The translations under genes were made by a program, and so were the position numbers. Below, in pieces: positions 29,244-54,930 of a DNA stretch of 57,794 nt. Source of the stretch: a virus; IMG/VR virus record IMGVR_UViG_3300050821_010701, positions 1 through 57,794 of that record. One strand, 5' to 3'. Position 1 is the stretch's first letter, and every line of letters starts with the position of its first letter. Below the pieces are notes generated by a model. It saw only the letters and a list, made by a program, of their open reading frames with translations, was not told the DNA's origin and made no database searches.

Positions 29244-30158
29244 TCACGAGGTCGGGTACGTGCCGTAGATATGCCGCCAGTCGTAGTAAGACGGCACGTA
29301 GCGCTGGTAGCCCTTGACCAACAGGTTGTCGGTCGAGAACTCGACGCTCATGTCGGTCTCGAACGGCTTCCGGTTGAAGAAGACGAGGCCCGGAATGTTG
29401 GTCAGCACGAACCATGCGAACGCGGAGGTCAGATAGTCGTAGACCATGTAGCCGTCCTTGAAGGACTGCTCCATTTCGCGGATCGCGTTGATGTCGTTGT
29501 TGCCGGTGCCGACGCGCAGTTCCGAACGGAATAGCCGCGAGGCGATCGGTTCAAGGTTCGCAGGCACGATGAGCTTCTGGCCGCGCGCATGCACCTTCAA
29601 ACCGGCGTTGTTCTTCCAAGTGCTGCGGATGGTGATCGCGGCGTTGAGCAGCGAGGTCTCGTTGAGGCTCGCATCAGGCGACGGCTGGTTGGCAATGGTG
29701 GTGCCGTCGATCGGATGCGCGACGTTGATCAGGGAGACTTGATCGCCAACCACCTGCGGGTTGAAGGTGGTGCCGCTGTTGAGGATGTTGGCGGCGTAGA
29801 CCTCTTCGGTCTCCTTGAACGACTCCATCAGACCGTCGTTGTTCGGACCGAACTCGGCCTTATACAAATTGTCATCGATGGTCGGTCTTGTGATCGCGTA
29901 CATTAATGCGATCTCAAAATGTTGCGCGTTATAAACGAACCGCTGGCCCATGTTGTTGTCGGTCGCGCTCGGCGCGCCTTCGTTCTTCAACTGCGCGTAA
30001 CCGAGGAAGCGCATCGCGGCGCGACGCTCCAGCGACATGTTGGAGTCGACCTGCTTGAAAATCTGCGGCCACTGCCGCTCGATCATCGGATAGCGGCCAT
30101 CGATGCCCCAGAGGCCCGGAAGCAGCAGGTCCTTGATCTGTGAGAGTGCGACGGGCAT
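29244..30158 (-). CDS. major capsid protein (HK97-type, gpT-like)
   Basis: 304 residues. Its first part (MPVALSQIKDLLLPGLWGID, then YPMIERQWPQIFK) and its ending (FFNRKPFETDMSVEFSTDNLLVKGYQRYVPSYYDWR) fit major capsid proteins of the HK97 fold seen in Mu-like and short-tailed phages. The middle has GQKLIVPANLEPIASRLFRS, the common 'P-L---A--L--S' strand of capsid subunits. AAGGAGG 7 bases before the ATG is the best ribosome-binding site in the late block, as expected for the most abundant protein. No protease-type propeptide is visible. Confidence 0.75.
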   Translation of the reverse strand: MPVALSQIKDLLLPGLWGIDGRYPMIERQWPQIFKQVDSNMSLERRAAMRFLGYAQLKNEGAPSATDNNMGQRFVYNAQHFEIALMYAITRPTIDDNLYKAEFGPNNDGLMESFKETEEVYAANILNSGTTFNPQVVGDQVSLINVAHPIDGTTIANQPSPDASLNETSLLNAAITIRSTWKNNAGLKVHARGQKLIVPANLEPIASRLFRSELRVGTGNNDINAIREMEQSFKDGYMVYDYLTSAFAWFVLTNIPGLVFFNRKPFETDMSVEFSTDNLLVKGYQRYVPSYYDWRHIYGTYPTS

Positions 30159-34640: not shown

Positions 34641-34870
34641 CAGTCGTTCTCCCCTCTGACATTGCCGTGGTTGGAGACCTGGCGCGCGGGCGCGCCGATC
34701 CAGCTTTCCTCTTCGGGCGAGGCGGCATCGCCTTGCGCCGATGCGCTGACCTTGACGCCAGCGATGCGTGAGGCCCGATCCATCGGATGTTCCCCGCGCG
34801 CGCCGGTCATGGCGTCGAGCTTATCGCCGTGCGACCGGCGGACGTCGTCTCTGTGTTCATGCGGCATCAT
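34640..34870 (-). CDS. small head-cluster protein, 76 aa
   Basis: Begins MMPHEHRDDVRRSHGDKLDA; charged and probably helical in its first half, with a Ser/Gly/Asp-rich end. It overlaps the portal stop by ATGA and the next gene by TGATG, so it is translated in step with them. Role unknown. Confidence 0.55.
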   Translation of the reverse strand: MMPHEHRDDVRRSHGDKLDAMTGARGEHPMDRASRIAGVKVSASAQGDAASPEEESWIGAPARQVSNHGNVRGEND

Positions 34871-37557
34871 TTGCCTCCTGCCGGTTTCGGCTTGTTCATT
34901 GCCTTGACCTTCGCGTCGGCGAGTTTCTTGCTCGTCTCAAGTTCGACCTTGTGCTTCTCGCCCTGACGCTCGTGCGTCTCTTTGTCGATCTTCATCTGCT
35001 GCTCGTGCTTCTCGCCCTCGCGATTAGCGCGCTCCTGCTCCGCAGGTCCGATCGCTTCGGCCTTGGCCTCGGCCATCTTCTTCTGGTTTTCGAGCGTGGC
35101 CTGGTGCTTCTCGCGTTCGAGCTGAATCTGTTGCGCCTGACGCTCGCGCTCGGCCGTAAGGGTCTGCTCGTGCTTCTGGCGCTGCGCCGCGATCTCCTGC
35201 TGGTGCTTCTGCGCGTTGGCCGTGATTTCAAGCTGATGCTTCTGCGCATCCTGATGTAGCTGCGCCTGGCCCTGCACATGATCGGAGATGATGTCGTGCT
35301 GCGCGGTCATCTGCTTCACCGCCATGTCTGACTGCGCCGAGACATTGTCGCGATGAATGTCGTGGGCATGGATGATCATCTCGGCCTGCACCCGCATCTG
35401 TTCGAGCTGCATCTCGAACTGCTGCATGCGCTCCTTGAAGGCGCGCTCGGCCTGTTTGTCGGCGAAGTTGGCCTGCTGGCTCTGCGCCTGGATGTAGACC
35501 TTGGCCTGGTCGATCTGCGCCTTCATCTGCTCGGCCTGCGCCTTGGCCTGGATCGCAACCATGCGCGGATCAGGCGGCGGCTGCGCGGTCTGGCTCTTCA
35601 TCAGGCCTTCGCTGTCGATGTCGGCAATCCGCAGGATGCGTTTCAACGAATTGCGCGCGTCCATGTCCTGCGGATATTTCGTGACCAGCATGTCGATGAT
35701 GGTCGCCTTCGCAATGCGATGCAGGCTCGTCGGATTGTTCGGATCGGCGACCGGCACCAGCTCGCGCTCGTCGAGCGCCTGCTTGAACTGCTCCACCGTC
35801 CATTGCCGCGACGGTTTCTTGTTGTGGCGCCAGAACGCCTCCGGGTCCTCGCGGAATCGCTCCTTCAGGAGGCCAAACTCCTCGGCCTGCGCCGCATGGA
35901 GGCGCTTGTGCACGCTGTCCATGATCTTGGTGGCCTGCTCGATCAGCGCCATGGTGGTGCCGACCGGTACGTCCTGCTTGCCCTCACCGATGTTGAGTTC
36001 GGCGGTCTGGCCAAGCCGCTGACCCACTTCCTCGATATGGGTGGCGAGATTGGTAAAGGCGGCGCCGGTTTCCTTGTAGGGAAGCGGCATGAACGCATCC
36101 TGGATTTTCATGCCGGGCGGTACGTCAACCGGCATGCCGCCGCCGACCGGGACGCGAAACTGGTTGGTCTTCTGACGACCGGCGCCCTGCGCGAATAGCC
36201 AGCCGGGAAAATTCGAAAACATGCCGTTGTCGATCATGATGCGCCAGATCGCGGTCAGCGCCATCGTGACATTGCCGAGAATGTGGATCAGGCCGAGACC
36301 ATAGAAGCCGAGCCCCCGGATGAACGGGAACTGGACAAAGAACTGCTTTGCGAGCGCCTGCTCATCGTCCTCTTCCCAGTTGCGGGTGACGGCGAGCACC
36401 TGACGGCTGTTCTTTTCGAGCGTGACGACGAACGGAAGCGGGAGCCCTTCGCCCTTGAACTGCTTCGGCGCGAACTCATCAAGATCAAGCTCGCAATAGC
36501 ACTCATAGATTTCGTACTCGGAATCCTTCGGCTGCTGCGGCAGTGGCTTATACCCGCCGATCTCGGCCTTGGCCTTCTCGACCGGCGTCACCTGCAGGTC
36601 CGATGAAGGCTCGCGCAGCTCGACATCGCGGTAGGCACCGGCGAGCTGCATCCGCTTCAGCATTGAGGGCCGCATCTTGATGCGGTGGGTAAACCGCGCG
36701 CAGTTGCGGATGTCGGTCGCCGCGTTCGAGACGATGATGTCCTCGGCGTCGACCGATTCCGACACCGGGCGCCGCTTCAAAATGTGGTTATAGACCTTCT
36801 TGAACCCGTCACCGCCAAAACCGATGTAGAACAGCATGCGGTCGGTGTCCGGCACATATTCGGTCGCGGTCACCGTGAGGTAGTGATTGAAATCCTTTTC
36901 CAGCGCGGCGCCGAGGTCGTCCATCGCCTGTCCCTCGGGTGCGGGGGATGCGCCGATACCGGGGGGAGGTGCTGCTGCAGGACCCGGTATCGGCGACTGC
37001 GCAGGCTGGCCGGGAGTCGTAGGGCCTGCGGTTGGTTGCGGCGTATCGGGCCGCATGGGTTGATCATTGCGAACTTTCACCGGGCCGGATGCGGGCAGAA
37101 ACTCACCGCGCGCGGTGGCCTGAAACCGGATCGTCGCCTCCAGAAGGAGCGGGTGGCGCACCGTCGACATGCCTTCCAGCGGCGCCGATGCCGTACCGGT
37201 GTCGCCGCGCGGTTCCTCGATCTTGAGGCCCAAGAGCCGGATGCCGGTCTGGCGAGAGTCCATCCAGTCCTTGCGCGAGGCGATGTCGAGGTCGATGCCG
37301 GTCAGAAGATCGGAGGCGATCCGCGAGAGTTCATCCTGCGGGATCGCGTCGGCGAGGTTGCGGTAGAAGTCGTTAGGGTCGCCAACGTCGTCGCGACCGG
37401 GATTTTCGTCATAGGTGGCGCTGCCGTCGCTATGCTCGTGCATAACGACGCCATCTTGAACGGCGATGGCGTGGTTGCCCTCGTCAAGGTCGATGTCCCG
37501 AGAGGAGAGATGCTCCTCCGGCTGCTCCGGGTCGACAAGGCGAAGGGTCGTGGCCAT
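34867..37557 (-). CDS. portal protein with a long coiled-coil C-terminus
   Basis: 896 residues. The central part (about 60-560) has the helical-rich layout of large portals of short-tailed phages, including a Pro/Ala-rich insertion at about 165-205 and DFNHYLTVTATEYVPDTDRM, GGDGFKKVYNHILKRRPVSE and VRHPLLLEATIRFQATARGE segments. The C-terminal 250 residues form a coiled coil rich in Gln/Glu/Ala/Lys (EEIAAQRQKHEQTL-like repeats), longer than usual. It forms the DNA entry ring of the head. It follows the terminase gene at only 40 bp. A dyad lies 15 bp before its start. Confidence 0.75.
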   Translation of the reverse strand: MATTLRLVDPEQPEEHLSSRDIDLDEGNHAIAVQDGVVMHEHSDGSATYDENPGRDDVGDPNDFYRNLADAIPQDELSRIASDLLTGIDLDIASRKDWMDSRQTGIRLLGLKIEEPRGDTGTASAPLEGMSTVRHPLLLEATIRFQATARGEFLPASGPVKVRNDQPMRPDTPQPTAGPTTPGQPAQSPIPGPAAAPPPGIGASPAPEGQAMDDLGAALEKDFNHYLTVTATEYVPDTDRMLFYIGFGGDGFKKVYNHILKRRPVSESVDAEDIIVSNAATDIRNCARFTHRIKMRPSMLKRMQLAGAYRDVELREPSSDLQVTPVEKAKAEIGGYKPLPQQPKDSEYEIYECYCELDLDEFAPKQFKGEGLPLPFVVTLEKNSRQVLAVTRNWEEDDEQALAKQFFVQFPFIRGLGFYGLGLIHILGNVTMALTAIWRIMIDNGMFSNFPGWLFAQGAGRQKTNQFRVPVGGGMPVDVPPGMKIQDAFMPLPYKETGAAFTNLATHIEEVGQRLGQTAELNIGEGKQDVPVGTTMALIEQATKIMDSVHKRLHAAQAEEFGLLKERFREDPEAFWRHNKKPSRQWTVEQFKQALDERELVPVADPNNPTSLHRIAKATIIDMLVTKYPQDMDARNSLKRILRIADIDSEGLMKSQTAQPPPDPRMVAIQAKAQAEQMKAQIDQAKVYIQAQSQQANFADKQAERAFKERMQQFEMQLEQMRVQAEMIIHAHDIHRDNVSAQSDMAVKQMTAQHDIISDHVQGQAQLHQDAQKHQLEITANAQKHQQEIAAQRQKHEQTLTAERERQAQQIQLEREKHQATLENQKKMAEAKAEAIGPAEQERANREGEKHEQQMKIDKETHERQGEKHKVELETSKKLADAKVKAMNKPKPAGGK

Positions 37558-37597: not shown

Positions 37598-39286
37598 TCA
37601 AACTGGATACAATGCGCCGGACCTCGGCCGGTAGCGGGTCTCCTGGGCCTCGCTATAGGCCACCTCCTGCTTCTTCATCGCCCAGCCGGAGCGCCTGAGG
37701 TAGAGCAGCGCCATGCTGCAGGTGTCGGCGAGGTCATCGTGCAGCGAGCGGGGAACGAGCGCGCACTGCTTGATCATCTCATCCGCCCATTCCTTGTCCG
37801 GCGCGTGGATCAGGCCCTCGGCGAACAGGTGCACCACCGTCTGCAGCCGCACCACCTTGTCATGCGATTTGATGAAGCCGGTCCTCGGGTCAACAATCTC
37901 GATGCCGAAGTCGAACGAGCCGAACAGTCGCGCCAGCTCGGTCGAGATCGGGATACCCGCCGTCTGGTTCTCGATGATCAGCCGGTCGACCTTGAACTTC
38001 TTGCAGTCGCTCCCAACCCGCGACACCAGCTCATGGAAGCGCAGCCGCTCGGCCCAGCAATACATCAGAAAAATCTTCGGGTTGCCCGCCTTGTCGCGAA
38101 AGATGCCCCAGATCGAGAGCGCCGACGGGTCGTTCTCCTGCTTCTCGGTGTAGGCGGTGTCGACGGCGGCAAGGATGTATTCGAAGCCGGGGTAGACCTC
38201 CTTCTTCACCACCTTGCCGGTGACCTCGTCCTTGACTTCAAGGAACGGGGTGCCGTGCTCGTTGGCGATTTTCTCGTCCCAGCCCTGCCACCATTCCCGG
38301 CGGATGATGCCACCGCCGCGCGGCGCTGGCTCCTGCTGGTATTGTCCGGCATAGGCGTAGGGGCCGAGTTCGCGTTCGAGGTTGTCGACGTCGCTCGGGG
38401 GAAACCGCTGCGGCCAGAGCAGCTCGCCCTCCTCGCTTCTCCGGTCGACCCAGAAAATGTCGTCGTCGTCGACATCATCTACATCGTCGCCGATGAAGGT
38501 CTTCACCCTGTCGCCGACCCAAGCGTTGACATGCTGGCACGGGACATAGGACATCGGCACGCAGAAATGCACGTAGCCGCCCTTGCGCAGGATGTCGCCG
38601 GAAAGGTCGCCCTCGTGCACGCGCTGCATCACCACGATCATGGCGCCGGTGTTGCGGTTGTTGAGGCGGCTCGGCATGGTTTCCGACCACCACTTCACGG
38701 TGTCCTCGCGGACGTCGTCGGACTCCGCCTCCTTGACCAGGTGCGGGTCGTCCGCGACTAGCACGTCGGCGCCAAAGCCGGTCGCCTTGGCGTCGACCGA
38801 CGAACACATCCGGTAGCCGCCTTTGTTGTTTTCGAAATGGCCCTGCGTCTCGCGGATCAGCCGGAACCGGTGGCCCCAACGCTGCTGGTACCAGCGTGAC
38901 TCGATCAGCCGCTTGCACTTGATCGAGTGTTCGAGCGAGAGCTTTTCGGCATAAGAGGCATAGAAGAACGACACCTGCGGCCCCATCAGCGGGCCTTTAT
39001 GGCGCTGCGCCCAGACCCAGGCGCAGAAGCAGATCGAGACGATGAAGGTCTTGCCGGTGCGCGGCGGCTCGTTGAGCAGCAGACGCGGGATGTAGCCGTG
39101 CGCTACCGCCTCCATGTGGTGGCAGATGTCTTCCAGATGCCAGTTCGGGACGAATTCGGCAGGATCGATGATCGGCCAGGCCGCCTTGCAAAACTCGTAA
39201 AAACTCTCTTCGAGCTTTTCCGCGTCCTTGATTTCCTTGATGCGGCGGGCCGCCTGCAGCGCCCGCACAAGTGTTTGTTGCGACAT
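37598..39286 (-). CDS. terminase large subunit
   Basis: 562 residues. The ATPase part has an adenine-binding region, the Walker A-like NEPPRTGKTFIVSI near residue 69 and a Walker B-like VLVADDPHLV near residue 180, with MQRVHEGDLSG further on. The nuclease part has AAVDTAYTEK (first Asp) near residue 375, IIENQTAGIPI, and the last acidic cluster HDDLADTCSMA near residue 535. This matches large terminases of the headful type. The ATG at 39286 replaces an in-frame GTG at 39331 that would lie in the dyad. It cuts and pumps DNA into the head. The small subunit is not next to it but at 54994. Confidence 0.9.
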   Translation of the reverse strand: MSQQTLVRALQAARRIKEIKDAEKLEESFYEFCKAAWPIIDPAEFVPNWHLEDICHHMEAVAHGYIPRLLLNEPPRTGKTFIVSICFCAWVWAQRHKGPLMGPQVSFFYASYAEKLSLEHSIKCKRLIESRWYQQRWGHRFRLIRETQGHFENNKGGYRMCSSVDAKATGFGADVLVADDPHLVKEAESDDVREDTVKWWSETMPSRLNNRNTGAMIVVMQRVHEGDLSGDILRKGGYVHFCVPMSYVPCQHVNAWVGDRVKTFIGDDVDDVDDDDIFWVDRRSEEGELLWPQRFPPSDVDNLERELGPYAYAGQYQQEPAPRGGGIIRREWWQGWDEKIANEHGTPFLEVKDEVTGKVVKKEVYPGFEYILAAVDTAYTEKQENDPSALSIWGIFRDKAGNPKIFLMYCWAERLRFHELVSRVGSDCKKFKVDRLIIENQTAGIPISTELARLFGSFDFGIEIVDPRTGFIKSHDKVVRLQTVVHLFAEGLIHAPDKEWADEMIKQCALVPRSLHDDLADTCSMALLYLRRSGWAMKKQEVAYSEAQETRYRPRSGALYPV

Positions 39287-39315
39287 GTCGCGACCATAGC
39301 CATTTTGGTGATAAC

Positions 39316-39331
39316 GTGAAAGGTCCCTCAC
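39316..39331. promoter_or_regulatory. GTGAA-N6-CTCAC dyad between terminase and the sugar operon
   Basis: GTGAA, AGGTCC, CTCAC; one mismatch. It sits 29 bp before the leftward terminase start and 41 bp before the rightward gene at 39373, so it could control both divergent units. Confidence 0.55.
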
Positions 39332-39531: not shown

Positions 39532-39686
39532 ACCGGGAAGAGATGGCAATGCTGCGTAAGACCATGTTCGCCATGGTCGAACGTCTGCGCAAGGTCGGCG
39601 ACTACGGCGCGGGCGCCGCCGACATCCGCCTCACCGCCGAGGTGGTGCTCAAGCTGATCGACCATTGGCTGGAGCGGATGAAATGA
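39528..39686 (+). CDS. small helical protein, 52 aa
   Basis: Begins MNREEMAMLRKTMFAMVERL and ends VVLKLIDHWLERMK; two amphipathic helices with several Met. ATGA overlaps with both neighbours. Not recognised. Confidence 0.6.
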   Translation: MNREEMAMLRKTMFAMVERLRKVGDYGAGAADIRLTAEVVLKLIDHWLERMK

Positions 39687-39886
39687 AGCACGGCAAGAGC
39701 GAGGTGCACTACTCCTCCGGCATGCTGCACTCGCATTGCGGTCCGACCTTCCACGACGACAAGTATTATTGCCGCCATTTCATACCGGGCACCGGCCGCA
39801 GCGGCCAATGCGACACAGTCGAGGGCGCGATCATGCCGGAGATGTGGTGCGAATTATATAAGCGAACGACCAAAGCATCGTCATGA
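39683..39886 (+). CDS. small Cys/His protein, 67 aa
   Basis: Begins MKHGKSEVHYSSGMLHSHCG. It contains C.......YYCRHF and TGRSGQCDTVEG then MWCELY, four cysteines and several histidines, so a metal site is likely. Similar small 'HC---F-P----G-C-LV-G-I' proteins are found in phage and bacterial genomes without known function. ATGA overlaps on both sides. Confidence 0.6.
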   Translation: MKHGKSEVHYSSGMLHSHCGPTFHDDKYYCRHFIPGTGRSGQCDTVEGAIMPEMWCELYKRTTKASS

Positions 39887-40398: not shown

Positions 40399-40574
40399 GC
40401 GAGGACGAGATCATCAAAAAAATCCGTGACGTCCGGTATGTGAACAATCTGCATTGGATGAAATTGCTTCAGATCGCACTCAAGCATGCGCCGATCGAGA
40501 CGAAGAAGGTTCTGCAGGCGATCAACGATAACGACCGGGTGGTCTCCGGTCTTCTCGCGGAGCTGGCAAAATGA
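40395..40574 (+). CDS. small helical protein, 59 aa
   Basis: GTG start overlapping the stop of the GNAT gene (GTGA). Reads MSEDEIIKKIRDVRYVNNLH, then WMKLLQIALKHAPIETKKVL; two helical units. Its stop overlaps the methyltransferase start (ATGA). No match known. Confidence 0.6.
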   Translation: MSEDEIIKKIRDVRYVNNLHWMKLLQIALKHAPIETKKVLQAINDNDRVVSGLLAELAK

Positions 40575-41176
40575 GACAGGCCGACATCTTCCTCGAAAGC
40601 GAAGGGAACGCCTGGTTTGAGCGCAACCGGGACAAGCCGCGTATCGACCATGTGACGCACTGCATCGCAGCGTATATCGGGCGGCGGCCGAATCGTGTGC
40701 TCGAAATCGGCTGCGGCGCAGGGTTCACCCTCGCCGCGATCCGCGAGTTATACGCCTGCGAGGTGCTTGGGATCGAGCCAAGCATAAAGGCCGGGATCGA
40801 GGCCGCCGGACGAAAGGTGCCGGTCCTCCAAATGACCGCATCCACACTGCCGGAGCACGGGCAGTTCGACCTCATCATCTACGGCTTCTGTCTCTACCTC
40901 ACCGATCCCGGTGACTGGTTCAAGATCGTGGCCGAGGGCGACCGCGTGCTTGCGATCGGCGGTCATATCATCATCCACGACTTCGGCGGCGATCTCAGCC
41001 TGCACGGCGTGCCCTATGTCCACGATCCACGCATTACCTCATGGCATTACGATTGGGCAAAACTCTGGCTCGGCCATCCGGCCTACGAAATGACCCACCG
41101 ACATTGGACGACAGGCCACGGTCATCCAGACCAGCAGTGCATCACGATCCTGCGCAAGAAGGAACTCAAGCCATGA
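40571..41176 (+). CDS. SAM-dependent methyltransferase
   Basis: 201 residues. Motif I is VLEIGCGAGFTLAAIRE near residue 43; motif II is VLGIEPSIKAGI; later motifs DLIIYGFCLYLTDPGDWFKI and GGHIIIHDFGGDL are also typical of class I methyltransferases (type 11/12). The C-terminal YDWAKLWLGHPAYEMT then HRHWTTGHGHPDQQC may hold the substrate pocket. It would methylate a sugar, lipid or protein; no target is clear. Overlaps both neighbours by 4 bp. Confidence 0.75.
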   Translation: MRQADIFLESEGNAWFERNRDKPRIDHVTHCIAAYIGRRPNRVLEIGCGAGFTLAAIRELYACEVLGIEPSIKAGIEAAGRKVPVLQMTASTLPEHGQFDLIIYGFCLYLTDPGDWFKIVAEGDRVLAIGGHIIIHDFGGDLSLHGVPYVHDPRITSWHYDWAKLWLGHPAYEMTHRHWTTGHGHPDQQCITILRKKELKP

Positions 41177-42072
41177 AGGTCGGCATCGTCGGCTACGGTT
41201 CTATCGGTAAGCGGCATGCCGACAACGCGCAGGTACTCGGACACGAGATAGTCGTCTATGACCCGCTGGTGCGCCGCGACGTCAAGTTCGAGCGCATGAT
41301 CTACGAACAATGCGACGTGGTCGTGGTGGCGACGCCGTCGCCCGCCCACGAAGGCCCGCTGCGCGCCGCGATCGAGCACCGTAGGCATGTGCTCATGGAG
41401 AAACCGATCTCGACCTCGGTCGGTATGCTCCCCATCCTGCTTGGGGACGCCACAGAGAAGAACCTCGTCGTCATGATGGGCAACAACCTTCGCTTCCATC
41501 CCTGCGTACAGCAGGCCAAGGAATGGATCGACGATGGCAAGATCGGCACGCCGGTATGGGCGCATTTCATCTGCGGCCAGGAAAGCACCAAGCCGCTCTA
41601 TCTCTCCGACGGTGTGATCCTCAACACCGGCGCGCACGAGGTCGACATGGCGCTACACCTGCTCGGGCCAGCGAAGGTGGCCTATGCCAATTCCTGCACA
41701 AAACTCCGGGCCGGGACAGCCGACAGCGACGTCAACGTCTTCTTCACCGAAGACATCGCCGACTTCATGCTCGTCCACGACAACGGTTGCCGATCGACTT
41801 TCCATCTCGACTTCATCACCCCTAACCAGATCAGGGAGGCGTGGGTTGTCGGCAGCGAAGAGAAGATCGGGATCGAGCTGCGCAACCGCACCTGCTCCCT
41901 CGGCGGCGAGGCCCGTGCCAGGCCCGGCAATTTCGATGGCGATTACTTCTCCGAGATGACGGCGTTCTTCGACCGCATCAAGGGCGAGACCACACCCGGC
42001 GCGACAGGGTGGGATGGTCTTGCGACGCTTCGCGTCCTGCTCGACGTTCGGAAGATGGCGGGGCTCGTATGA
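41173..42072 (+). CDS. Gfo/Idh/MocA-family oxidoreductase
   Basis: 299 residues. Rossmann NAD(P) motif GIVGYGSIGKRHADNA at residues 4-19, VVVATPSPAHE near 55, the EKP motif in LMEKPISTSVG near 77, and the catalytic-region NTGAHEVDMALHLLGP near 155. The C-terminal beta-sheet domain is present. This family oxidises or reduces sugar nucleotides and related substrates, and it is often part of nonulosonate or surface-sugar clusters. ATGA overlaps both sides. Confidence 0.8.
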   Translation: MKVGIVGYGSIGKRHADNAQVLGHEIVVYDPLVRRDVKFERMIYEQCDVVVVATPSPAHEGPLRAAIEHRRHVLMEKPISTSVGMLPILLGDATEKNLVVMMGNNLRFHPCVQQAKEWIDDGKIGTPVWAHFICGQESTKPLYLSDGVILNTGAHEVDMALHLLGPAKVAYANSCTKLRAGTADSDVNVFFTEDIADFMLVHDNGCRSTFHLDFITPNQIREAWVVGSEEKIGIELRNRTCSLGGEARARPGNFDGDYFSEMTAFFDRIKGETTPGATGWDGLATLRVLLDVRKMAGLV

Positions 42073-44198
42073 AGGTCGTCGCAGTCATTCAGGCCCGGAT
42101 GGGTTCGACCCGCCTACCTGGCAAGGTTATGATGGAGCTTGGCGGGCACCGCGTCCTCGCCTGGTGCCTCCGCGCCGCGCGCGCCGCGCCTGGCGTCGAC
42201 GAGGTCTGGGTTGCGACAACCACGCTCGAATCCGATGATATGATTGCGGACTGGTGCAGGCAGCGTGACGTCAACTGCTGGCGCGGGTCGGAAACCGATG
42301 TCCTCGATCGCTTCCGCTCCCTTGCCTTCCAAATCTACCCGAACGTGATCCTGCGGCTAACGGGCGACTGCCCGTTCCTCGACCCACAGGTGATCGGTGC
42401 GGTAGTCCGGCTGCAACGCCAGACTGGCGCAGAGTATTGCAGCAACGTCAGCCCGCGCACCTATCCCGATGGCCTCGACGTCGAGGCCATGACCATCAAC
42501 GCCTTGGAGCACGCCCACGTCGAAGCGACGCGGCCGATCGACCGCGAATGCGTTACCACATGGATCGAGCGCAACCGCTCGCGCTTCCCGGCCGAGACGT
42601 TGATCAACCCTATCCCAGGCCTGCAGGACGAGCGGTGGGTGCTCGACACCGAGGATGATTACGAGTTCTGCAAGGCCCTCGCGCACCGCTGGCCGTGGGA
42701 AAAGGGGCCGCCGTCCCAGCTCGACATCCTGAACATCCTCGACAAGGAGCCGTTGCTCCGCATCCCCAACACCCAAGAGAAGATGAACGAGCGTCATTTC
42801 GCTGCGCTCGCGGAGGAGCCGATCCATGAACGGAAATACGAGAGGTCGCAGGCGCAGTTCGAAAAAGCCAAAGCGGTCATCCCGCTCGCCGCGCAAACCT
42901 TCAGCAAAAGCTATCTCCAGTACCCGCAGCCGTCGCCGCTCTTTGTCAGTCACGGACAGGGAGCCTTGGTATGGGACATCGACGGAAACGAATATATCGA
43001 TCTTGTGTCCGCACTGCTCCCGACCGTTCTGGGCTATCGTGACAGCGAAGTCGATGCGGCCATCCGGCGACAACTCAGTTCCGGTATATCTTTCAGTCTC
43101 GCTACAGACCTTGAAGCGACGCTTTCCGAAACACTCTGCCGCCTCATCCCATGCGCGGAAGCGGTCCGGTTCGGCAAAAGCGGCACGGATGTCACAACGG
43201 CAGCGATAAGGCTCGCGCGCGCCCACACCGGTCGTGACCGTATCCTGATCTGCGGCGGCTACCATGGCTGGGCCGACTGGTCCGCCGATGCCATGCGGCA
43301 TGTCGGCGTGCCGGACATTGTGAGAGGCCTGACGACGCGAATTCCGTTCGGCCAAACTCCTTGGGGCACGAAGCTCGCCGCTGCCGTCATTGTCGAACCG
43401 GAAAGCAACCCGCAATACCTGCAGGAGCTGCGCGAGTATTGCGACAAGACCGGCACCGTCCTCATCTTCGACGAGGTGATCACCGGCTTCCGCTTCGACC
43501 TCGGCGGCGCGCAGAAGCTCTACAACGTCACCCCTGACCTCGCATGCTTCGGTAAGGCGATGGCCAACGGCATGCCGCTGTCGGCACTTGTGGGCCGCAA
43601 AGACATCATGAAGCGGATGGAGCCGCCGGATAACATCTTCTATTCCGGCACGATGTTCGGCGAGACCTTGTCGCTCGCAGCCGGGATCGCGACCATCGCC
43701 AAGATGGAACGCGACAATGTTCCATACAACCTCCGTATATCCGGCGGCTGGCTCTCCTCTCAGGTCGAAGAGATGGTCGAGGATCATGGCTTGGAGGATG
43801 CGATTGAATTGTCCGGCGACGCGGTATTCAAGCGCCTCAAATTCCGCGATGACCAGATCGCCGCTCTCTTCCGCAAGGAGATGATCGCGAGCGGCACCTT
43901 GATCATCGCGTCGCATAACATCTGTGCCGCACATGGGCTCAACGACCTGAAGCGTGTTCTCAAGAGCTATAGCCACACGCTTCCCATCATCGAGCAGGCG
44001 GTCCGCAACGGCGACATCGAGCAGCGGCTCGCCGGGGCCACGGTTGCGCCGACGGTGCGAGATGGCCTTCGCATCACAAGCAAAGGTCCGAATGGGCCGG
44101 TGGTGGGCGATGGCATCGCCCTCACATCGATGGAACATCCGGAAGGTCTCATCGACAAGATCGCCGACGCCATCAAAAGTGGGAAATTGAAGTCGTGA
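42069..44198 (+). CDS. fusion: SpsF/NeuA-like cytidylyltransferase plus class III aminotransferase
   Basis: 709 residues. Residues 1-235 are a nucleotidyltransferase: VVAVIQARMGSTRLPGKVMM at the N-terminus, LRLTGDCPFLDPQVIG near residue 97, and YCSNVSPRTYPDGLDVEAM. This matches SpsF and CMP-sugar activating enzymes. Residues 280-709 are a PLP enzyme of the glutamate-1-semialdehyde aminomutase type: YIDLVSALLPTVLGYRDSEV, VRFGKSGTDVTTAAIRLARA, GGYHGWADW, VLIFDEVITGFRF and CFGKAMANGMPLSAL (PLP lysine near residue 495). A linker with 'EKMNERHFAALAEEP' joins them. In other bacteria these two are usually separate genes. It would activate a sugar with CMP and transfer or move an amino group. Confidence 0.8.
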   Translation: MKVVAVIQARMGSTRLPGKVMMELGGHRVLAWCLRAARAAPGVDEVWVATTTLESDDMIADWCRQRDVNCWRGSETDVLDRFRSLAFQIYPNVILRLTGDCPFLDPQVIGAVVRLQRQTGAEYCSNVSPRTYPDGLDVEAMTINALEHAHVEATRPIDRECVTTWIERNRSRFPAETLINPIPGLQDERWVLDTEDDYEFCKALAHRWPWEKGPPSQLDILNILDKEPLLRIPNTQEKMNERHFAALAEEPIHERKYERSQAQFEKAKAVIPLAAQTFSKSYLQYPQPSPLFVSHGQGALVWDIDGNEYIDLVSALLPTVLGYRDSEVDAAIRRQLSSGISFSLATDLEATLSETLCRLIPCAEAVRFGKSGTDVTTAAIRLARAHTGRDRILICGGYHGWADWSADAMRHVGVPDIVRGLTTRIPFGQTPWGTKLAAAVIVEPESNPQYLQELREYCDKTGTVLIFDEVITGFRFDLGGAQKLYNVTPDLACFGKAMANGMPLSALVGRKDIMKRMEPPDNIFYSGTMFGETLSLAAGIATIAKMERDNVPYNLRISGGWLSSQVEEMVEDHGLEDAIELSGDAVFKRLKFRDDQIAALFRKEMIASGTLIIASHNICAAHGLNDLKRVLKSYSHTLPIIEQAVRNGDIEQRLAGATVAPTVRDGLRITSKGPNGPVVGDGIALTSMEHPEGLIDKIADAIKSGKLKS

Positions 44199-45037
44199 GT
44201 TCGGTCCTGATCACCGGCGGCAGCGGTGCATTCGGCACCGCACTCGCGCGGGAATTGCTCACCTGGGAGAATCCATATGAGCGAATCATCGTCTTCTCAC
44301 GTGGCGAGCATCGCCAGGCCGAGATGGCGCGCGAGATCGCAGACCCCGATCAACGACTACGCTTTTTCATCGGCGACGTCCGCGACCGTGACCGGCTGCT
44401 TCGTGCCATGGCAGGTGTCAATGTCGTCATCCATGCGGCAGCCCTAAAGCGTATCGAGGTAGGAGCCTACAACCCGCTTGAGGTCATGAAGACCAATATC
44501 CTGGGTGCTGCAAACGTTATTGAGTCTGCGACCGACGAGGGCGTTGACAAGGTAGTCGCACTCTCGACCGACAAGGCATTCCAGCCGGTGAGTCCATATG
44601 GCACGTCGAAGGCATTTGCGGAATCGCTCTTCCTCGCCGCCAACAACACGCGCGGCTGGCACGGTCCGCGCTTCGCCATTGTGAGATATGGCAACGTGTG
44701 GGCAAGCACCGGCAGCGTGGTGCCAACCTGGCGCGAGATATTGAAGACCTCAGACACGGTGCCGGTGACCGATCCGGAGTGCACCCGGTTCTTCATGACC
44801 ATGGATGAGGCCGTGCAGCTCGTTCTTTCGACGGCCGAGACCATGAATGGCGGCGAGATCGTGATCCCGACACTCCCCGCTTACCGCCTCGGAGACCTCG
44901 CGGAAGCCCTTGGCGCGAAGATGCAGGTGATCGGGCTCCCGAAATGGGAGAAGCTCCACGAGAGCATGGCGGAAGGCAACAGCAGCGACAAGGCGCGGCG
45001 CATGAGCGTAGCGGAGCTGCGGGAGAAACTGCGATGA
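44195..45037 (+). CDS. PseB-like UDP-sugar 4,6-dehydratase (SDR)
   Basis: 280 residues. NAD-binding VLITGGSGAFGTALARELL at the N-terminus; ALSTDKAFQPVSPYGTSKAF near residue 125 supplies Thr-Asp-Lys and the YxxxK pair; RYGNVWASTGSVVPTWREIL and TDPECTRFFMTMDEAVQLVL follow. This set (RYGNV..S.GSV.P, TDP..TRF.M) is the signature of the FlaA1/PseB inverting 4,6-dehydratases, which take UDP-GlcNAc to a 4-keto-6-deoxy sugar, the first step in making pseudaminic acid. Shorter than usual by about 40-50 residues. GTG start overlapping the previous stop. Confidence 0.8.
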   Translation: MSSVLITGGSGAFGTALARELLTWENPYERIIVFSRGEHRQAEMAREIADPDQRLRFFIGDVRDRDRLLRAMAGVNVVIHAAALKRIEVGAYNPLEVMKTNILGAANVIESATDEGVDKVVALSTDKAFQPVSPYGTSKAFAESLFLAANNTRGWHGPRFAIVRYGNVWASTGSVVPTWREILKTSDTVPVTDPECTRFFMTMDEAVQLVLSTAETMNGGEIVIPTLPAYRLGDLAEALGAKMQVIGLPKWEKLHESMAEGNSSDKARRMSVAELREKLR

Positions 45038-45492
45038 TTGATATGAGGCCCGCCACCATGGCCGACACCGACCTGCTCCTCTCCTGGCGCAACGATCCGG
45101 TGACCTGCGCCAACAGCAAGAGCACGGCGACCGTGAGCCGGGAGGATCACGAGCGCTGGATGAAGTTCAACGTCGCGCAGGGCTATCCGCAGCACATGGT
45201 GATGATCGCGAATAGCCAGGTAAGCGGGAGCATCGGCGTAGTCCGTTTCGATGCGGAGAGGAGCGACGTCATGAAGTACGAGGTCTCCATCACGATCGCG
45301 CCGGAGCATCGCGGCTGCGGCCTCGGGCGCCCGGTTTTGGCGACCGCCTGCGCCCACATGCCGGACGTGTCGCTCTCCGCCATGATCCGGAAAGAGAACA
45401 CCGCCTCGCGCCGGATATTTGAGGAGTGCGGGTTCGAGGAGACCGACGGCGAGCATGGATTTGTTACCTGCCGCAGGGAGCCGCTGTCATGA
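45034..45492 (+). CDS. GNAT acetyltransferase, PseH-like
   Basis: 152 residues. Core motifs: MIDMRPATMADTDLLLSWRN, then YEVSITIAPEHRGCGLGRPV (acetyl-CoA loop HRGCGLG), and SAMIRKENTASRRIFEECGF. PseH-type enzymes acetylate the 4-amino group of the sugar nucleotide after the PseC aminotransferase. In this operon it lies between PseB-like and PseC-like genes. It overlaps both by 4 bp. Which sugar is acetylated is inference. Confidence 0.7.
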   Translation: MIDMRPATMADTDLLLSWRNDPVTCANSKSTATVSREDHERWMKFNVAQGYPQHMVMIANSQVSGSIGVVRFDAERSDVMKYEVSITIAPEHRGCGLGRPVLATACAHMPDVSLSAMIRKENTASRRIFEECGFEETDGEHGFVTCRREPLS

Positions 45493-46592
45493 TCGGCCCG
45501 ATCAAGCCGTTCAAGTCGATCGGTATCGAAGAAATGATGGAAGTCGCGGAGGTTATGTCATCGCCGCTCTCAGGATACCTTGCAGGACAAGAACGCGGCG
45601 GTGCCCGCGTGCGTGCGCTGGAAGATGCGTGGGCCAGAACCTTCAAGGTCAAACACGCCATCGCCTGCAACAGCGCGACAAGCGGATTGATGGCTGCAGC
45701 ATTCGCGGTCGGACTCAGGTCCGGCGATCAGTTTATTTGTCCGGCGATGACGATGTCGGCGACATGCGCCGCACCGATGTTCACCGGCGCGACGCCGATC
45801 TTCTGCGATGTGAGAGATGATGATTTCGCGGCGTTCAGCACCGGTTACCCACCGCCAAAAGCCAATTTTGTGACCAACCTGTTCGGCCATCCAGCGAAAC
45901 TCCGTAACCTCCGCGACATCGCGGACATGTACGGTACCTATCTCATCGAGGACAACGCGCAGTCGCCGTTCGCGATGACCGACATGCTGTCCGAAAGTCG
46001 ATACACTGGCACCATCGGCTACATCGGCGTCTTCTCCCTCAACGTGCACAAACCGATCCAGTGCGGCGAGGGTGGGGTGGTGACCACGGACGATGACGAT
46101 CTCGCCAAGCGTTTGAGAAACTTTATCAATCATGGCGAAAACGCCGGTGACCGGATCGGCCTCAACCTGCGCATGCCCGAGGTCTGCGCGGCCATCGCGC
46201 TGGTGCAACTACGGCGCGGCCCAGAGATTATCGCAGGCCGGGTCAAACAGGCCGAGGCGATCCTGGCCGCGATCCGCGACATCCCAGGGATACGGCCACC
46301 GATCACGCGCGAGGGCTGCACGCACGTCTACTACGCGATCCCGTTCCTGATCGAGACGAAGCGCGCCGCCTTCTGTGCGGCCCTCCGCGAGCAAGGGGTG
46401 CCGATCGTGGAGGGCTACGTCCCGCCGCTCTACCGCCTGCCCGCATTCTCTGCGTTTGCGCGATCGTGCCCAGTCGCGGAGGACCTGCACGACTGGCGAC
46501 TCTTTTACTTCGAGAACTGTGCCTATGATCCGACGCCGGAGCAGATGGAGCAGATCGGGGATGCGTTCCAGAAGGCGGCCAAGGCGTTGTGA
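45489..46592 (+). CDS. DegT/DnrJ/EryC1-type aminotransferase (PseC-like)
   Basis: 367 residues. SPLSGYLAGQERGGARVRAL near residue 30, CNSATSGLMAAAFAVGLRSG near 60 (PLP phosphate loop), FICPAMTMSATCAAPMFTGA, LIEDNAQSPFA near 155 (PLP-binding Asp-Asn-Ala-Gln) and GVFSLNVHKPIQCGEGGVVT near 185 with the catalytic lysine. These are all hallmarks of the DegT family of sugar aminotransferases. The partner would be the 4-keto sugar from the PseB-like enzyme. ATGA overlap on both sides. Confidence 0.8.
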   Translation: MIGPIKPFKSIGIEEMMEVAEVMSSPLSGYLAGQERGGARVRALEDAWARTFKVKHAIACNSATSGLMAAAFAVGLRSGDQFICPAMTMSATCAAPMFTGATPIFCDVRDDDFAAFSTGYPPPKANFVTNLFGHPAKLRNLRDIADMYGTYLIEDNAQSPFAMTDMLSESRYTGTIGYIGVFSLNVHKPIQCGEGGVVTTDDDDLAKRLRNFINHGENAGDRIGLNLRMPEVCAAIALVQLRRGPEIIAGRVKQAEAILAAIRDIPGIRPPITREGCTHVYYAIPFLIETKRAAFCAALREQGVPIVEGYVPPLYRLPAFSAFARSCPVAEDLHDWRLFYFENCAYDPTPEQMEQIGDAFQKAAKAL

Positions 46593-46840
46593 ATATCATC
46601 TTCCCGTCAGGTTACCGTGTCGAAGTAAGCCGCCTGCGGCAGCAACTCGATGAGGCGCACTTCGCCTGGTGGAAGGAATGGAAGGCACAACAACCGGAGT
46701 TCAAGATCGAGAACGTCCGATTCAAACATGTCGCTGGCTGGAATCAGAAGTTCTTCAGTATTCAGTCGGCCCATGACGGCAACCACCCGATATGGAAGGC
46801 GACACGCCTGATCTGGTTCTCCATGGGAGGTTCGATATGA
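46589..46840 (+). CDS. unknown protein, 83 aa
   Basis: GTG start overlapping the aminotransferase stop (GTGA). Begins MNIIFPSGYRVEVSRLRQQL and is Trp/Lys/Phe-rich (FAWWKEWKAQQPEF). No known domain. It breaks the run of sugar genes but keeps the overlapping-stop arrangement. Confidence 0.5.
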   Translation: MNIIFPSGYRVEVSRLRQQLDEAHFAWWKEWKAQQPEFKIENVRFKHVAGWNQKFFSIQSAHDGNHPIWKATRLIWFSMGGSI

Positions 46841-47064
46841 GAGACCGAAAATATGACTGGGCTTTGGGTCCATCCGACGCAGCCGCGAAACAATATAGCG
46901 AGGACTGCGCGATGATGGATTGTCTCAACACAGAACTGTCCGGCTATGGCAGGGCCGAGAAGCGCAAGGACAGAGACCCCAAGGCTTGCCCGATGTGCGA
47001 TGGCCATGGCTGCATCGACTGTCACGGCAGCGGATATTTTAACAGGTGGGTATCACAACTATGA
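46837..47064 (+). CDS. DnaJ-type zinc-finger protein, 75 aa
   Basis: Ends in ACPMCDGHGCIDCHGSGYFN: the CxxCxGxGCxxCxGxGY unit resembles one half of the DnaJ central zinc-binding domain. The first 50 residues are polar. No J-domain is present. Such short single-unit forms are seen in phages and may chaperone or bind RNA. Overlaps both neighbours. Confidence 0.6.
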   Translation: MRDRKYDWALGPSDAAAKQYSEDCAMMDCLNTELSGYGRAEKRKDRDPKACPMCDGHGCIDCHGSGYFNRWVSQL

Positions 47065-47690
47065 CCGAGATCGTCGCCGAGATTTCAGGGAATCATGGCG
47101 GGTCGCTCGACAACGCGTTCAAGCTCATCGATGCGGCGGCTGAGGCAGGTGCCGATGCGGTTAAGTTTCAATGTTTCCAACCTGAACGCCTTGCGCGGCG
47201 ACGCGCGAACAACCCCGATGTGCTTCGTCTTGCGGGCGGCGTCCCCCTTCTCGACCTCTATCGCAAAACATATACGCCGATGTTCTGGTTCCCCCAGATG
47301 GCGCAGCGCGCAAAGTGGAACGGGATCGAATGGTTCTCGTCGGTCTTCGACCCCAATGATGTTAGGTTCCTCGAAGGTCTTGAATGCCCGCGTTACAAGA
47401 TCAGCGCGTTCGAGATGCTCGACTGGGACATCATCAAGGCCGTGCGCGACACCGGGAAGCCGATCGTCATCTCGGTCCGGCCGATCCCTGGCGTCACCGT
47501 GATGCAGGTGACCGACTATAACGGCGAGATGGTGCCGCTCGGTCTCTCCGCCCACGGCGCGATCCTGCCCGCGCCTGATAACCCGATGGTGGAGTGGCAC
47601 CTGAAGCTCCCAGGCGTCGAGACGCCGGATAGCGACTTCTCGCTGACGCCGGAGGAGATGGCCAGGCTCGTTAGGAAGATAAAGAAATGA
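47061..47690 (+). CDS. shortened NeuB/PseI-like nonulosonate synthase
   Basis: 209 residues against about 340 for usual NeuB enzymes. Residues 1-45 (EIVAEISGNHGGSLDNAFKL, then IDAAAEAGADAVKFQCFQPE) are the canonical TIM-barrel start; FDPNDVRFLEGLECPRYKIS and FEMLDWDIIKAVRDTGKPIV are also NeuB-like. Then about 40-60 residues of the barrel (the HCVS.YP region) are missing; the protein resumes with PLGLSAHGAI, then MVEWHLKLPGVETPDSDFSL and TPEEMARLVRKI. The C-terminal antifreeze-like (SAF) domain is absent. NeuB condenses an N-acylmannosamine-like sugar with phosphoenolpyruvate. Whether this form is active is uncertain. Confidence 0.7.
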   Translation: MTEIVAEISGNHGGSLDNAFKLIDAAAEAGADAVKFQCFQPERLARRRANNPDVLRLAGGVPLLDLYRKTYTPMFWFPQMAQRAKWNGIEWFSSVFDPNDVRFLEGLECPRYKISAFEMLDWDIIKAVRDTGKPIVISVRPIPGVTVMQVTDYNGEMVPLGLSAHGAILPAPDNPMVEWHLKLPGVETPDSDFSLTPEEMARLVRKIKK

Positions 47691-48031
47691 TCCAACTCCC
47701 GAAGATCGAGGTTGATCTCGATGTGCAGTTCAAGCCTGAAGACCTGATCGTGCGCGCGTTCGAACGATATACCTTCTCGTTTAACGATTGGCGCGGTATC
47801 TGGGGGACCTACGAGACCACGCTCGCAGCGCCGCACATCTGGGTGCCGAAGCTAACGCTACCGCAGGCCGTCGCGGTCGGCGCGGCGGCGGCGATCATCA
47901 AGAACCCCGTGATCACGCGCCGGTTCTGGGCAGGTTGGACGACGCCTCGCGCAGCGCCGCCTTGCGTTCCTTCTTCCAGAACACCCGCTTCCATTTCCGT
48001 AGGTGCTTCCACCACTGCGGTGAGCGCGTGA
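47687..48031 (+). CDS. unknown protein at the end of the sugar operon, 114 aa
   Basis: ATGA overlap with the NeuB-like gene. Residues 1-84 look like a real protein (MIQLPKIEVDLDVQFKPEDL, then TLPQAVAVGAAAAIIKNPVI). Residues 85-114 are low-complexity Pro/Ser/Ala and lie antisense to a minus-strand gene, so that end may be an accidental extension. No domain recognised. Confidence 0.5.
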   Translation: MIQLPKIEVDLDVQFKPEDLIVRAFERYTFSFNDWRGIWGTYETTLAAPHIWVPKLTLPQAVAVGAAAAIIKNPVITRRFWAGWTTPRAAPPCVPSSRTPASISVGASTTAVSA

Positions 48032-48940: not shown

Positions 48941-49774
48941 TTAGTGCGCGCCGAAGTGGTAGTTCACACCGAGCCGAGCGATATTCTCGCGAACACGCAG
49001 ATCGGTCTGATAGGACGCTCCCGGCGAAACCTGCGGCGGCGAGCCGCAGAAAGGCAAATTGGTACAAGCCTGCGTGTACCCGGCCTTACCCAAGTCGACG
49101 AAGAGGTATTCCGCCTTGATCGACCATTGGGGAGCAATCATCCATTCGCCACCGCCGCCGACGGTCCATCCAACCCTGGTGTCGTCCAATGTACCAGCGT
49201 AAGTATCCCTTGTAGTAGTGAAAGAAACCGAACTCACCGACTTGACCTGACCGAACGCCAGACCGCCAGTTGCGTAAAGTAGCAAGCTCGGAGTGACGGT
49301 TAAGCCTGTGCGACCGCGCACCGTTCCGAACCACTGCAGCTTGTCGGTCTCCGAGTGGATGAAGTTCCCGGTGAGCGGGGCTGCGAGCGGGCGGTTGACG
49401 AAGTTGCTGTCATTGATGCCGAGAAAGTTGATATCAGCTTCAACACCGGCGACGAAATTGCTGATCTGCCAGTTGTAGCCTGCCTGGCCACCGCCGGTGA
49501 AGCCGGTGCCACTAAGGCGGACCGAATCAGAACGGAGATGGTTGAGGACGGTGCCCCCGCCGCAAGTGACGCTGGTGAGGAAGCAACCGGTCGGGGAGAC
49601 GTCATCGCGGGTATCATTCCAGGCCCCGCCCACGTTGAGACCGAGGTAGAACCCAGACCAGTCGTAGATGGGACGGACGGCTGGCATCGGCGCCGCCTTG
49701 AGCGGCATGTCGGCCGCAGCAGCCGGGACGATGGACAGCACGGCAAAACAGGCCGCGAGCAGATGCCTTTTCAT
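48941..49774 (-). CDS. Omp25/RopB-like outer membrane beta-barrel protein
   Basis: 277 residues. A signal peptide (MKRHLLAACFAVLSIVPAAA, cleavage after AAA) leads to DMPLKAAPMPAVRPIYDWSG and FYLGLNVGGAWNDT, the classical opening of small eight-strand barrels of alphaproteobacteria ('YDW-GFY-G-N-G'). Alternating strands and a final NIARLGVNYHF strand with a terminal aromatic complete the barrel. It is a host-type gene that stands alone with a terminator, between 21-bp direct repeats. Phage-borne barrels (as lambda lom) can alter the host surface or block superinfection. The gene may have been acquired from a bacterium. Confidence 0.8.
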   Translation of the reverse strand: MKRHLLAACFAVLSIVPAAAADMPLKAAPMPAVRPIYDWSGFYLGLNVGGAWNDTRDDVSPTGCFLTSVTCGGGTVLNHLRSDSVRLSGTGFTGGGQAGYNWQISNFVAGVEADINFLGINDSNFVNRPLAAPLTGNFIHSETDKLQWFGTVRGRTGLTVTPSLLLYATGGLAFGQVKSVSSVSFTTTRDTYAGTLDDTRVGWTVGGGGEWMIAPQWSIKAEYLFVDLGKAGYTQACTNLPFCGSPPQVSPGASYQTDLRVRENIARLGVNYHFGAH

Positions 49775-53862: not shown

Positions 53863-54930
53863 TCATGTCTCGTTTTGGACTCTTCCCGAAGACGCAGCTT
53901 CCCCCAAACGCGCGACGCGGTCAATCACGTTCGCCACCGCCTGACCAGACCATGGCGCCCCGGTCGCCGACCGGACCTTCATCCGGTTCAGCTCCCGCGC
54001 CACGGCGCGGACCGAGACCTTCGCACCAGGTGCGACCGTGCGAGCGACAATATCCTCGATCGCACCGATCACGCCCCTCGCAAACTCATCCGCCGCCGCG
54101 CGTTTCCCCGCCGCCGCACGCGCCCGCATCCCATCCATGTCCGGATTGCCAAGCACGGTCCCCCGCGCCTTCGCCGCCGCCAACGCCGCCTTGGTCCGCT
54201 GCGAAATGAGCGCCGCCTCCTTCTGCGCCACCGCCGCATAAATGTGGAGCATGAACGGGTCCACATCCGGACCCAGCTCCGTCACCACAAACGGAACACG
54301 CTGCGCCATGAGGCCGGAAATGAAATGAACATCGCGCGAAAGCCGGTCGAGCTTCGCAACCGCCACCTTGCAACCAACCCGCCGCGCAAGAGCGAGCGCC
54401 GCAACAAGCTGCGGCCTCTGCTCCAACGCGTCCGCACCCTTCCCCGTCTCCACCTCCACAAACTCGTGGATGAGGTTCAACCGGTGCTGATCCGCAAACC
54501 GCAGCAGTGCCGCACTCTGCGCCTCCAACCCAAGCCCGCTCCGCCCCTGCCGCTGCGTCGATACCCGGATGTACCCAACAACAGAACGGGTCCCCTCAGG
54601 AACACGGACTACCTCCTCCGCACGCGGATGGGACCCAACAGAAACCGGGTCCCCAGAAATATGGGTCCCATCGGAAGATGGAGGTACACCCCGCCCAGAA
54701 CCCGCCGTCACCGACAGGTCACGCTCACCGGTATTGCGAGACGCACCAAGCAGGCAGGGTGCAGATTTCCCTATACCGGAACAGGTCCCATTTGAAGAAG
54801 GGGGGGATAACGAAAATGAGGACCCGGCCCCATTAGCGGCCCCCGCCCCGCCGGACGGCTCCCCTGCGGGAGCGGCGGGGCGATCGGACCGGGCGGCGCG
54901 ACCGGGGCGGGCGGCAAGCGTGTGCGACAT
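53863..54930 (-). CDS. serine recombinase with a long disordered N-terminal extension
   Basis: 355 residues. The catalytic domain starts near residue 115 with [20 protein letters not shown] (catalytic Ser in RVS) and holds [20 protein letters not shown] (the 'LDRLSR' pair) plus [21 protein letters not shown]-terminal helix-turn-helix-like part ([20 protein letters not shown] then [12 protein letters not shown]) binds DNA. This is a small serine recombinase, usable for integration, inversion or resolution. Residues 1-110 are Gly/Ser/Pro-rich and low-complexity, which is unusual. AAGGGA lies 8 bases before the ATG. A GTC-type box overlaps its last codons. Confidence 0.75.
53867..53880 (-). promoter_or_regulatory. 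GTC-type box at the recombinase/accessory boundary
   Basis: GTCCAAAACGAGAC on the minus strand, followed by ATG, as at 7727. It overlaps the recombinase's last codons (Val-Gln-Asn-Glu-Thr) and lies 26 bp before ATG 53840. Confidence 0.5.

Follow-up and report, generated by a model that had tools for sequence, protein, structure and literature searches.

The synthesis of nonulosonic acids of the pseudaminic type has been described for bacteria such as Campylobacter and Helicobacter, in which PseB, PseC, PseH, PseG, PseI and PseF turn UDP-GlcNAc into CMP-pseudaminate and the sugar serves in flagellin glycosylation. Phage genes that act on such sugars are known as well, but these edit a sugar that the host already makes, like the prophage genes EpaA/EpaB, a gene pair established to edit a host pseudaminic acid in Acinetobacter baumannii (PMC12053666), and the phage O-acetyltransferases of nonulosonates (PMC6586298). 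We analyzed a complete IMG/VR virus record of 57,794 bases (IMGVR_UViG_3300050821_010701; hereafter the window), in which a nearly complete set of genes for a sialic-acid-like sugar of the pseudaminic type is encoded beside the terminase gene. Literature searches, which were limited to open-access papers, returned no report of a phage-encoded nonulosonate synthesis pathway. The relevant features of the window are the following:

34867..37557, minus strand: portal protein next to terminase (phrog_1216, 3.1e-26)
37598..39331, minus strand: terminase large subunit, divergent neighbour of the cassette at a fixed insertion place (phrog_38, 1e-87)
39665..39886, plus strand: u73, a small conserved ORF at the head of the cassette, with tblastn matches at the same place in the related loci L007, L009, L011, L012, L143, L145, L146, L149, L150 and L152
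39883..40398, plus strand: GNAT1 acetyltransferase (Acetyltransf_3, 1.1e-20), first gene of the conserved cassette in relatives
40571..41176, plus strand: SAM methyltransferase (Methyltransf_25, 4.7e-10), conserved in most relatives but missing from L009 and L015
41173..42072, plus strand: Gfo/Idh/MocA oxidoreductase (Pfam GFO_IDH_MocA, 7.8e-13) with the EKP motif kept; the best NCBIfam match is UDP-GlcNAc 3-dehydrogenase (90.6 bits, below the cut-off of 450)
42069..44198, plus strand: 709-aa fusion of an SpsF-type cytidylyltransferase (about aa 1-245; CTP_transf_3, 9.7e-26) and a class III, GSA-aminomutase-like aminotransferase (about aa 250-709; Aminotran_3, 6.6e-41), with the QARMGSTRLPGK and PLP-lysine (GKAMANGMP) motifs kept
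44195..45037, plus strand: PseB-like UDP-GlcNAc 4,6-dehydratase of 280 aa (Polysacc_synt_2/PseB, 6.9e-79; TIGR03589, 310 bits against a cut-off of 407.75), TDK and YxxxK motifs kept; closest solved relative 2gn4 (9.4e-74), from the PseB structure set
45034..45492, plus strand: PseH-like GNAT acetyltransferase (best NCBIfam match TIGR03585, 43 bits against a cut-off of 93.1)
45489..46592, plus strand: DegT-type sugar aminotransferase, LegC/PseC-like (Pfam, 3.9e-54; LegC 138 and PseC 135 bits, far below the cut-offs of 420 and 424), K and GEGG motifs kept
46589..46840, plus strand: 83-aa ORF with a 4-base overlap with the DegT gene
46792..47064, plus strand: 90-aa protein with a CxxC...CxxC zinc-ribbon-like motif and a weak match to phrog_1418, of unknown function
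47061..47690, plus strand: mini-NeuB/PseI, a 209-aa reduced form of the nonulosonate synthase without SAF domain and, in alignment and predicted fold, without barrel helices 5-7
53863..54930: serine recombinase

An earlier note, made from the sequence alone, had described eight genes in one overlapping run (41173-47690), preceded by a GNAT and a methyltransferase, as a near-complete nonulosonic acid pathway without a PseG-like hydrolase. The gene content it reported is confirmed. The reading frames are real and intact, and the junctions at 41173, 42069, 44195, 45034, 45489, 46589 and 47061 overlap the previous stop by 4 bases, whereas the frame at 46792 overlaps its neighbour by 49. Pfam and NCBIfam profiles placed six of the eight frames in the families that had been named; the 83- and 90-aa frames are not sugar genes by any match, the former having lain outside the scan against family libraries. 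Two corrections are needed, however. The NeuB-like protein is a reduced form and not a full synthase, and none of the window proteins reaches the NCBIfam equivalog cut-off for PseB, PseC, PseH, PseI or PseF (for the latter two 139 of 340.25 and 21.7 of 205.7 bits, respectively), which makes them Pse-type enzymes rather than certified orthologues. In addition, the 'podovirus-like' character of the genome is supported only by two DNA-ejection-protein matches and the head genes.

To see whether the cassette is peculiar to one phage, as the earlier note had treated it, IMG/VR was searched with the SpsF-aminotransferase fusion, which gave 20 loci (designated here, like the other loci, by L and a number). 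Most of these show the order GNAT - methyltransferase - Gfo/Idh - SpsF::aminotransferase - PseB - (PseH) - DegT - NeuB, at 33-81% protein identity to the window, although PseH is missing from several relatives (L004, L013-L019, L022). In those with enough flank, portal and terminase lie just upstream on the opposite strand, as in the window. As an independent test the viral collection was searched with terminase alone. Of the 12 contigs obtained one is cut inside terminase, and the other 11 all carry the cassette, or as much of it as the contig holds, next to terminase. In total the order recurs in about 24 other uncultured viral contigs, with dN/dS values of 0.09-0.42, which is far beyond chance. 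In the contig behind L144 (73,997 bases) the first 120 bases recur at the end as a direct terminal repeat and the cassette runs across the join, so that it belongs to a complete or circular phage genome. More distant phages in the annotated collection, like Manatee Spring phage (MW202675; terminase 37% and capsid 58% identical), have no cassette beside terminase, and the module thus marks a clade. Other relatives by capsid protein infect Caulobacter, Roseobacter and Pelagibacter, which together with an outer-membrane-protein gene related to those of an alphaproteobacterial order points to alphaproteobacterial hosts; this remains an inference. The best identity of the outer-membrane protein is 42-45% and provides only a lead. 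Scans for promoters and terminators gave results at or below chance level and were uninformative.

The NeuB of the window has 209 residues, about 60% of the normal size (the PseI model has 327 positions). The Pfam NeuB domain (PF03102) is recovered over its cut-off (106 against 22.1 bits; 2.4e-30), but only profile positions 1-120 are covered in one stretch. The first 139 residues align with NeuB/PseI throughout. Aligned with full-length phage NeuBs, the remainder keeps barrel strands 5 to 8 but lacks about 26-28 residues after strand 5, about 20 after strand 6, about 10 after strand 7 and the whole C-terminal SAF (antifreeze-like) domain. Residues equivalent to Glu25, Lys53, Gln55, Thr110 (as Ser), Phe112, Lys129, Glu134, Ser154, Tyr186, Ser213, His215, Glu234 and His236 of Neisseria meningitidis NeuB are kept, and all 13 are invariant in seven mini-NeuBs. 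Most of these are in the active-site list of PMC6795526. Lys53, Glu134, Ser154 and His236 also belong to the active site, and the two histidines are assigned as metal ligands. By contrast, Asn74 and Asn184 are not kept, and Phe288 and the substrate-binding Arg314 of the SAF domain are absent, the R314A change of which abolishes activity in N. meningitidis NeuB (PMC6795526). AlphaFold2 predicted a confident eight-stranded barrel with mixed alignment rows (pLDDT 92, pTM 0.89) and, as a control, with mini-NeuB rows only (85 and 0.83). In a Foldseek search with the model, the best solved-structure match was pseudaminic acid synthase of C. jejuni (8h2c; query TM 0.81, E 1.7e-15), followed by the DAHP and KDO8P synthases, relatives that lack the cap. 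The window NeuB has no match among 50,697 annotated phage records.

A NeuB tree of 111 rows puts nine mini-NeuBs in one clade (100/100) on a very long stem (1.84), nested inside an 18-row phage-only clade (100/99) with the full-length NeuBs of the same cassette. The two full-length forms that were tested, those of L015 and L011, pass the PseI equivalog cut-off (393 and 358 bits). The SAF domain is found in all nine records with a full-length NeuB and in none of the mini-NeuB records searched, and each phage has one NeuB, which excludes a separately encoded SAF or a second full-length NeuB for the records searched. A recent pseudogene or frameshift can be rejected as well, considering that the nine mini-NeuBs are of nearly equal length, form one clade and are under purifying selection (dN/dS 0.18-0.29). 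The terminase and DegT trees agree in outline, but place L011, with its full-length NeuB, among mini-NeuB carriers, and L144, whose terminase is 73% identical to that of the window, also has a full-length NeuB (the terminases of L011 and L144 are 73-75% identical to the window's). The two forms thus exchange in the same slot, which is the best available hint that they do the same job. Mini-NeuBs also occur in other settings, namely in L027 and L031, where the gene lies in the late operon before the portal gene, and in L006 and L030, phages of 85-87 kb, the latter of which adds the acetamidino-sugar genes WbuX and WbuZ/HisF. A bacterial mini-NeuB was not found among the best 80 hits in genome contigs, a list that is not exhaustive, nor in 297 genomes of one alphaproteobacterial order, where one short frame (L137) lies at a contig edge.

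A PseG hydrolase was found in none of 19 records, the window included, although the contigs may be incomplete. A PseG hidden in the gaps of the cassette could be rejected, as the ORFs there are an ATP-grasp protein and a PIG-L deacetylase (by Pfam in L010, similar by eye in L009, L011 and L012) and, by eye, a methyltransferase (L004) and an RmlD-like reductase (L017). Such variation in tailoring genes is the pattern expected if the exact sugar is under diversifying pressure. No glycosyltransferase was recognized among the window proteins scanned, which did not include all small ORFs. Serine recombinases were found in the window and in 6 of 19 records, many of which are fragments; such a recombinase hints at a temperate life and hence at lysogenic conversion.

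Based on the above, we propose that a lineage of uncultured, perhaps at least partly temperate phages, probably infecting Alphaproteobacteria, carries as a fixed module beside terminase a nearly complete pathway for a CMP-activated, further aminated nonulosonic acid of the pseudaminic type, and we put the probability of this reading at about 0.6. In this view, PseB would turn UDP-GlcNAc into a 4-keto-6-deoxy sugar, DegT would add the 4-amino group and PseH would acetylate it, after which UDP would be removed by a host PseG-type hydrolase, since none is encoded. The mini-NeuB would then condense the freed 6-deoxy sugar with phosphoenolpyruvate on a stripped TIM barrel and the SpsF domain would add CMP. 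Gfo/Idh and the class III aminotransferase probably act together, as they are adjacent in the phages and fused in a NeuB cluster of the bacterium L053, and with GNAT1 and the methyltransferase they would oxidise one hydroxyl, replace it with an amino group and cap it. Finally, a host glycosyltransferase would place the sugar on a surface glycan, leading to lysogenic conversion or superinfection exclusion, or less likely on the virion. A. baumannii prophages provide a proven precedent for lysogenic conversion at the level of sugar editing. What the analysis itself establishes are the gene families, the conserved order and place, the retained catalytic residues, the purifying selection, the predicted fold and the interchange of mini and full-length NeuB in one slot, whereas every reaction, including the condensation activity of the mini-NeuB and the formation of any CMP-nonulosonate, as well as the host-supplied steps, the acceptor, expression in a lysogen and the purpose, are inferred. 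The lack of PseG in the 19 records and of a recognized glycosyltransferase among the window proteins scanned leaves the pathway unclosed.

The interpretation of the earlier note is therefore supported in part. The genes do belong to nonulosonic acid families of the pseudaminic type (PseB over LegB by 310 to 62 bits and PseI over NnaB by 139 to 99 bits), the set does lie in a phage genome without PseG, and the pathway reading is strengthened by the full-length NeuBs that sister phages carry in the same cassette; the purposes that had been suggested, namely the blocking of superinfection, a change of the host surface or decoration of the particle, stay conjectural. A further possibility, which we consider as likely as not, is that the lineage has evolved the smallest known nonulosonic acid synthase, a catalytically active TIM barrel stripped of three outer helices and of the SAF cap and functionally interchangeable with full-length PseI in the same operon slot.

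Of the alternatives, the use of the sugar for the virion itself, by glycosylation of capsid or tail proteins, survives best but appears unlikely. The cassette sits beside terminase and portal throughout the lineage, and in L027 and L031 the mini-NeuB lies on the same strand shortly upstream of the portal gene. Moreover, an ORF directly after NeuB in the window encodes a copy of the C-terminal 39 residues of the major capsid protein, and capsid glycosylation has been proposed for mycobacteriophages (PMC11256854). On the other hand, in most relatives the cassette is divergent from the structural genes, no glycosyltransferase was found among the window proteins scanned, and the capsid-like ORF is not seen beside NeuB in other cassettes. 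Slightly less likely still is a cassette that stops at a UDP-2,4-diamino-2,4,6-trideoxy hexose that is used directly, with the mini-NeuB as a non-catalytic or regulatory remnant. The absence of PseG from the records searched, which is the step needed to free the sugar for NeuB, and the loss of the SAF domain and three barrel helices on a very long stem branch speak for it. However, a non-catalytic remnant need not keep all 13 mapped active-site positions, including both histidines, the dN/dS is about 0.2, sister phages without PseG keep a full-length PseI and a CMP-type cytidylyltransferase is always present. Mis-binned or wrongly joined bacterial DNA, suggested by the bacterial relatives that all families have in polysaccharide clusters, is refuted by the recurrence of the terminase junction in many contigs from independent metagenomes, the recovery of the cassette from terminase alone, the terminal repeat in the contig of L144 and the phage-only clade in the NeuB tree.

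What is new, as far as the open-access papers searched show, is that a nearly whole synthesis pathway is kept as a fixed module across a phage lineage, which suggests that remaking sugars is a built-in part of how these phages live. If true, the phages remake host (or their own) sugars as part of their normal life, which gives a testable model for glycan-based superinfection control, and the mini-NeuB offers a natural test of how much of a TIM barrel and its substrate cap can be removed without losing catalysis.

Compared with the bacterial CMP-pseudaminic acid pathway, the cassette has PseB-, PseC/DegT-, PseH- and PseI-type enzymes and a cytidylyltransferase in common, but it lies on a phage, lacks PseG, has a cytidylyltransferase of the SpsF type rather than the PseF type that is fused to a class III aminotransferase, includes Gfo/Idh, a methyltransferase and an extra GNAT, and in the window has a NeuB reduced to 209 aa. 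The extra module of Gfo/Idh, SpsF and class III aminotransferase is also found beside NeuB genes in bacterial nonulosonate clusters (e.g. L061 and L067), but there it is chromosomal, with the genes separate or, as in L053 with its Gfo/Idh-aminotransferase fusion, joined in another combination, and L053 has a PseG-like frame (judged by eye). EpaA/EpaB and the phage O-acetyltransferases share with the cassette that phage genes act on pseudaminic-type sugars, with lysogenic change of the host surface, which for the cassette is inferred, but here nearly the whole synthesis is encoded. Finally, NeuB proteins without a SAF domain, as judged by length, occur in Leptospira (6ncs, 290 residues) and among the bacterial rows of 273-293 aa in the tree, but by length these keep the whole barrel, whereas the phage form also loses helices 5-7, about 60-70 further residues.

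Three reading frames of the window that lie outside the sugar genes deserve mention here, the first two of which adjoin the cassette:

47687-48031, plus strand, the ORF directly following the mini-NeuB gene
48941-49774, minus strand, a gene for a host-like outer membrane beta-barrel protein
53863-54930, minus strand, a serine recombinase, possibly an integrase

The first of these encodes a 44%-identical copy of the last 39 residues of the phage's own major capsid protein (29244-30158, minus strand), fused to an unrelated tail, and it was not seen beside NeuB in other cassettes. The second (OMP_b-brl, 3e-18) is 42-45% identical to proteins of an alphaproteobacterial order, and a similar gene was found in the contig of L003, one of the related viral records. 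The family of the serine recombinase was recovered in 6 of 19 related records.

The setting of the mini-NeuB differs between some of the related viral contigs. In L027 (4248-13853) and L031 (5-499) it sits on the same strand shortly before the portal-like gene, in the case of L027 between terminase and portal, and in L027 SpsF and the aminotransferase are separate genes. In L006 and L030, contigs of 85-87 kb, the mini-NeuB occurs in an unlike phage group, together with a shortened DegT and a HisF-like gene, and L030 carries in addition WbuX (N-acetyl sugar amidotransferase, over cut-off) and a WbuZ-like gene.

The composition of the cassette itself also varies. In the viral contig L010 (12864-14350) an ATP-grasp ligase plus a PIG-L deacetylase are inserted between PseB and PseH, and ORFs that are similar, judged by eye, were observed in the related contigs L009, L011 and L012. 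Within the cassettes of the viral records L003-L030, two unlike PseB lineages occupy the same slot and these do not track the terminase tree. In L157 (9378-9956), the contig of L144 whose cassette is the one with terminal repeats, the full-length NeuB is followed by a frame that, judged by eye, is formyltransferase-like. Finally, a bacterial counterpart was found in L053 (2083-4329), an alphaproteobacterial NeuB cluster in which Gfo/Idh is fused to the class III aminotransferase, and which thereby provides a Rosetta-stone link between these two cassette enzymes.
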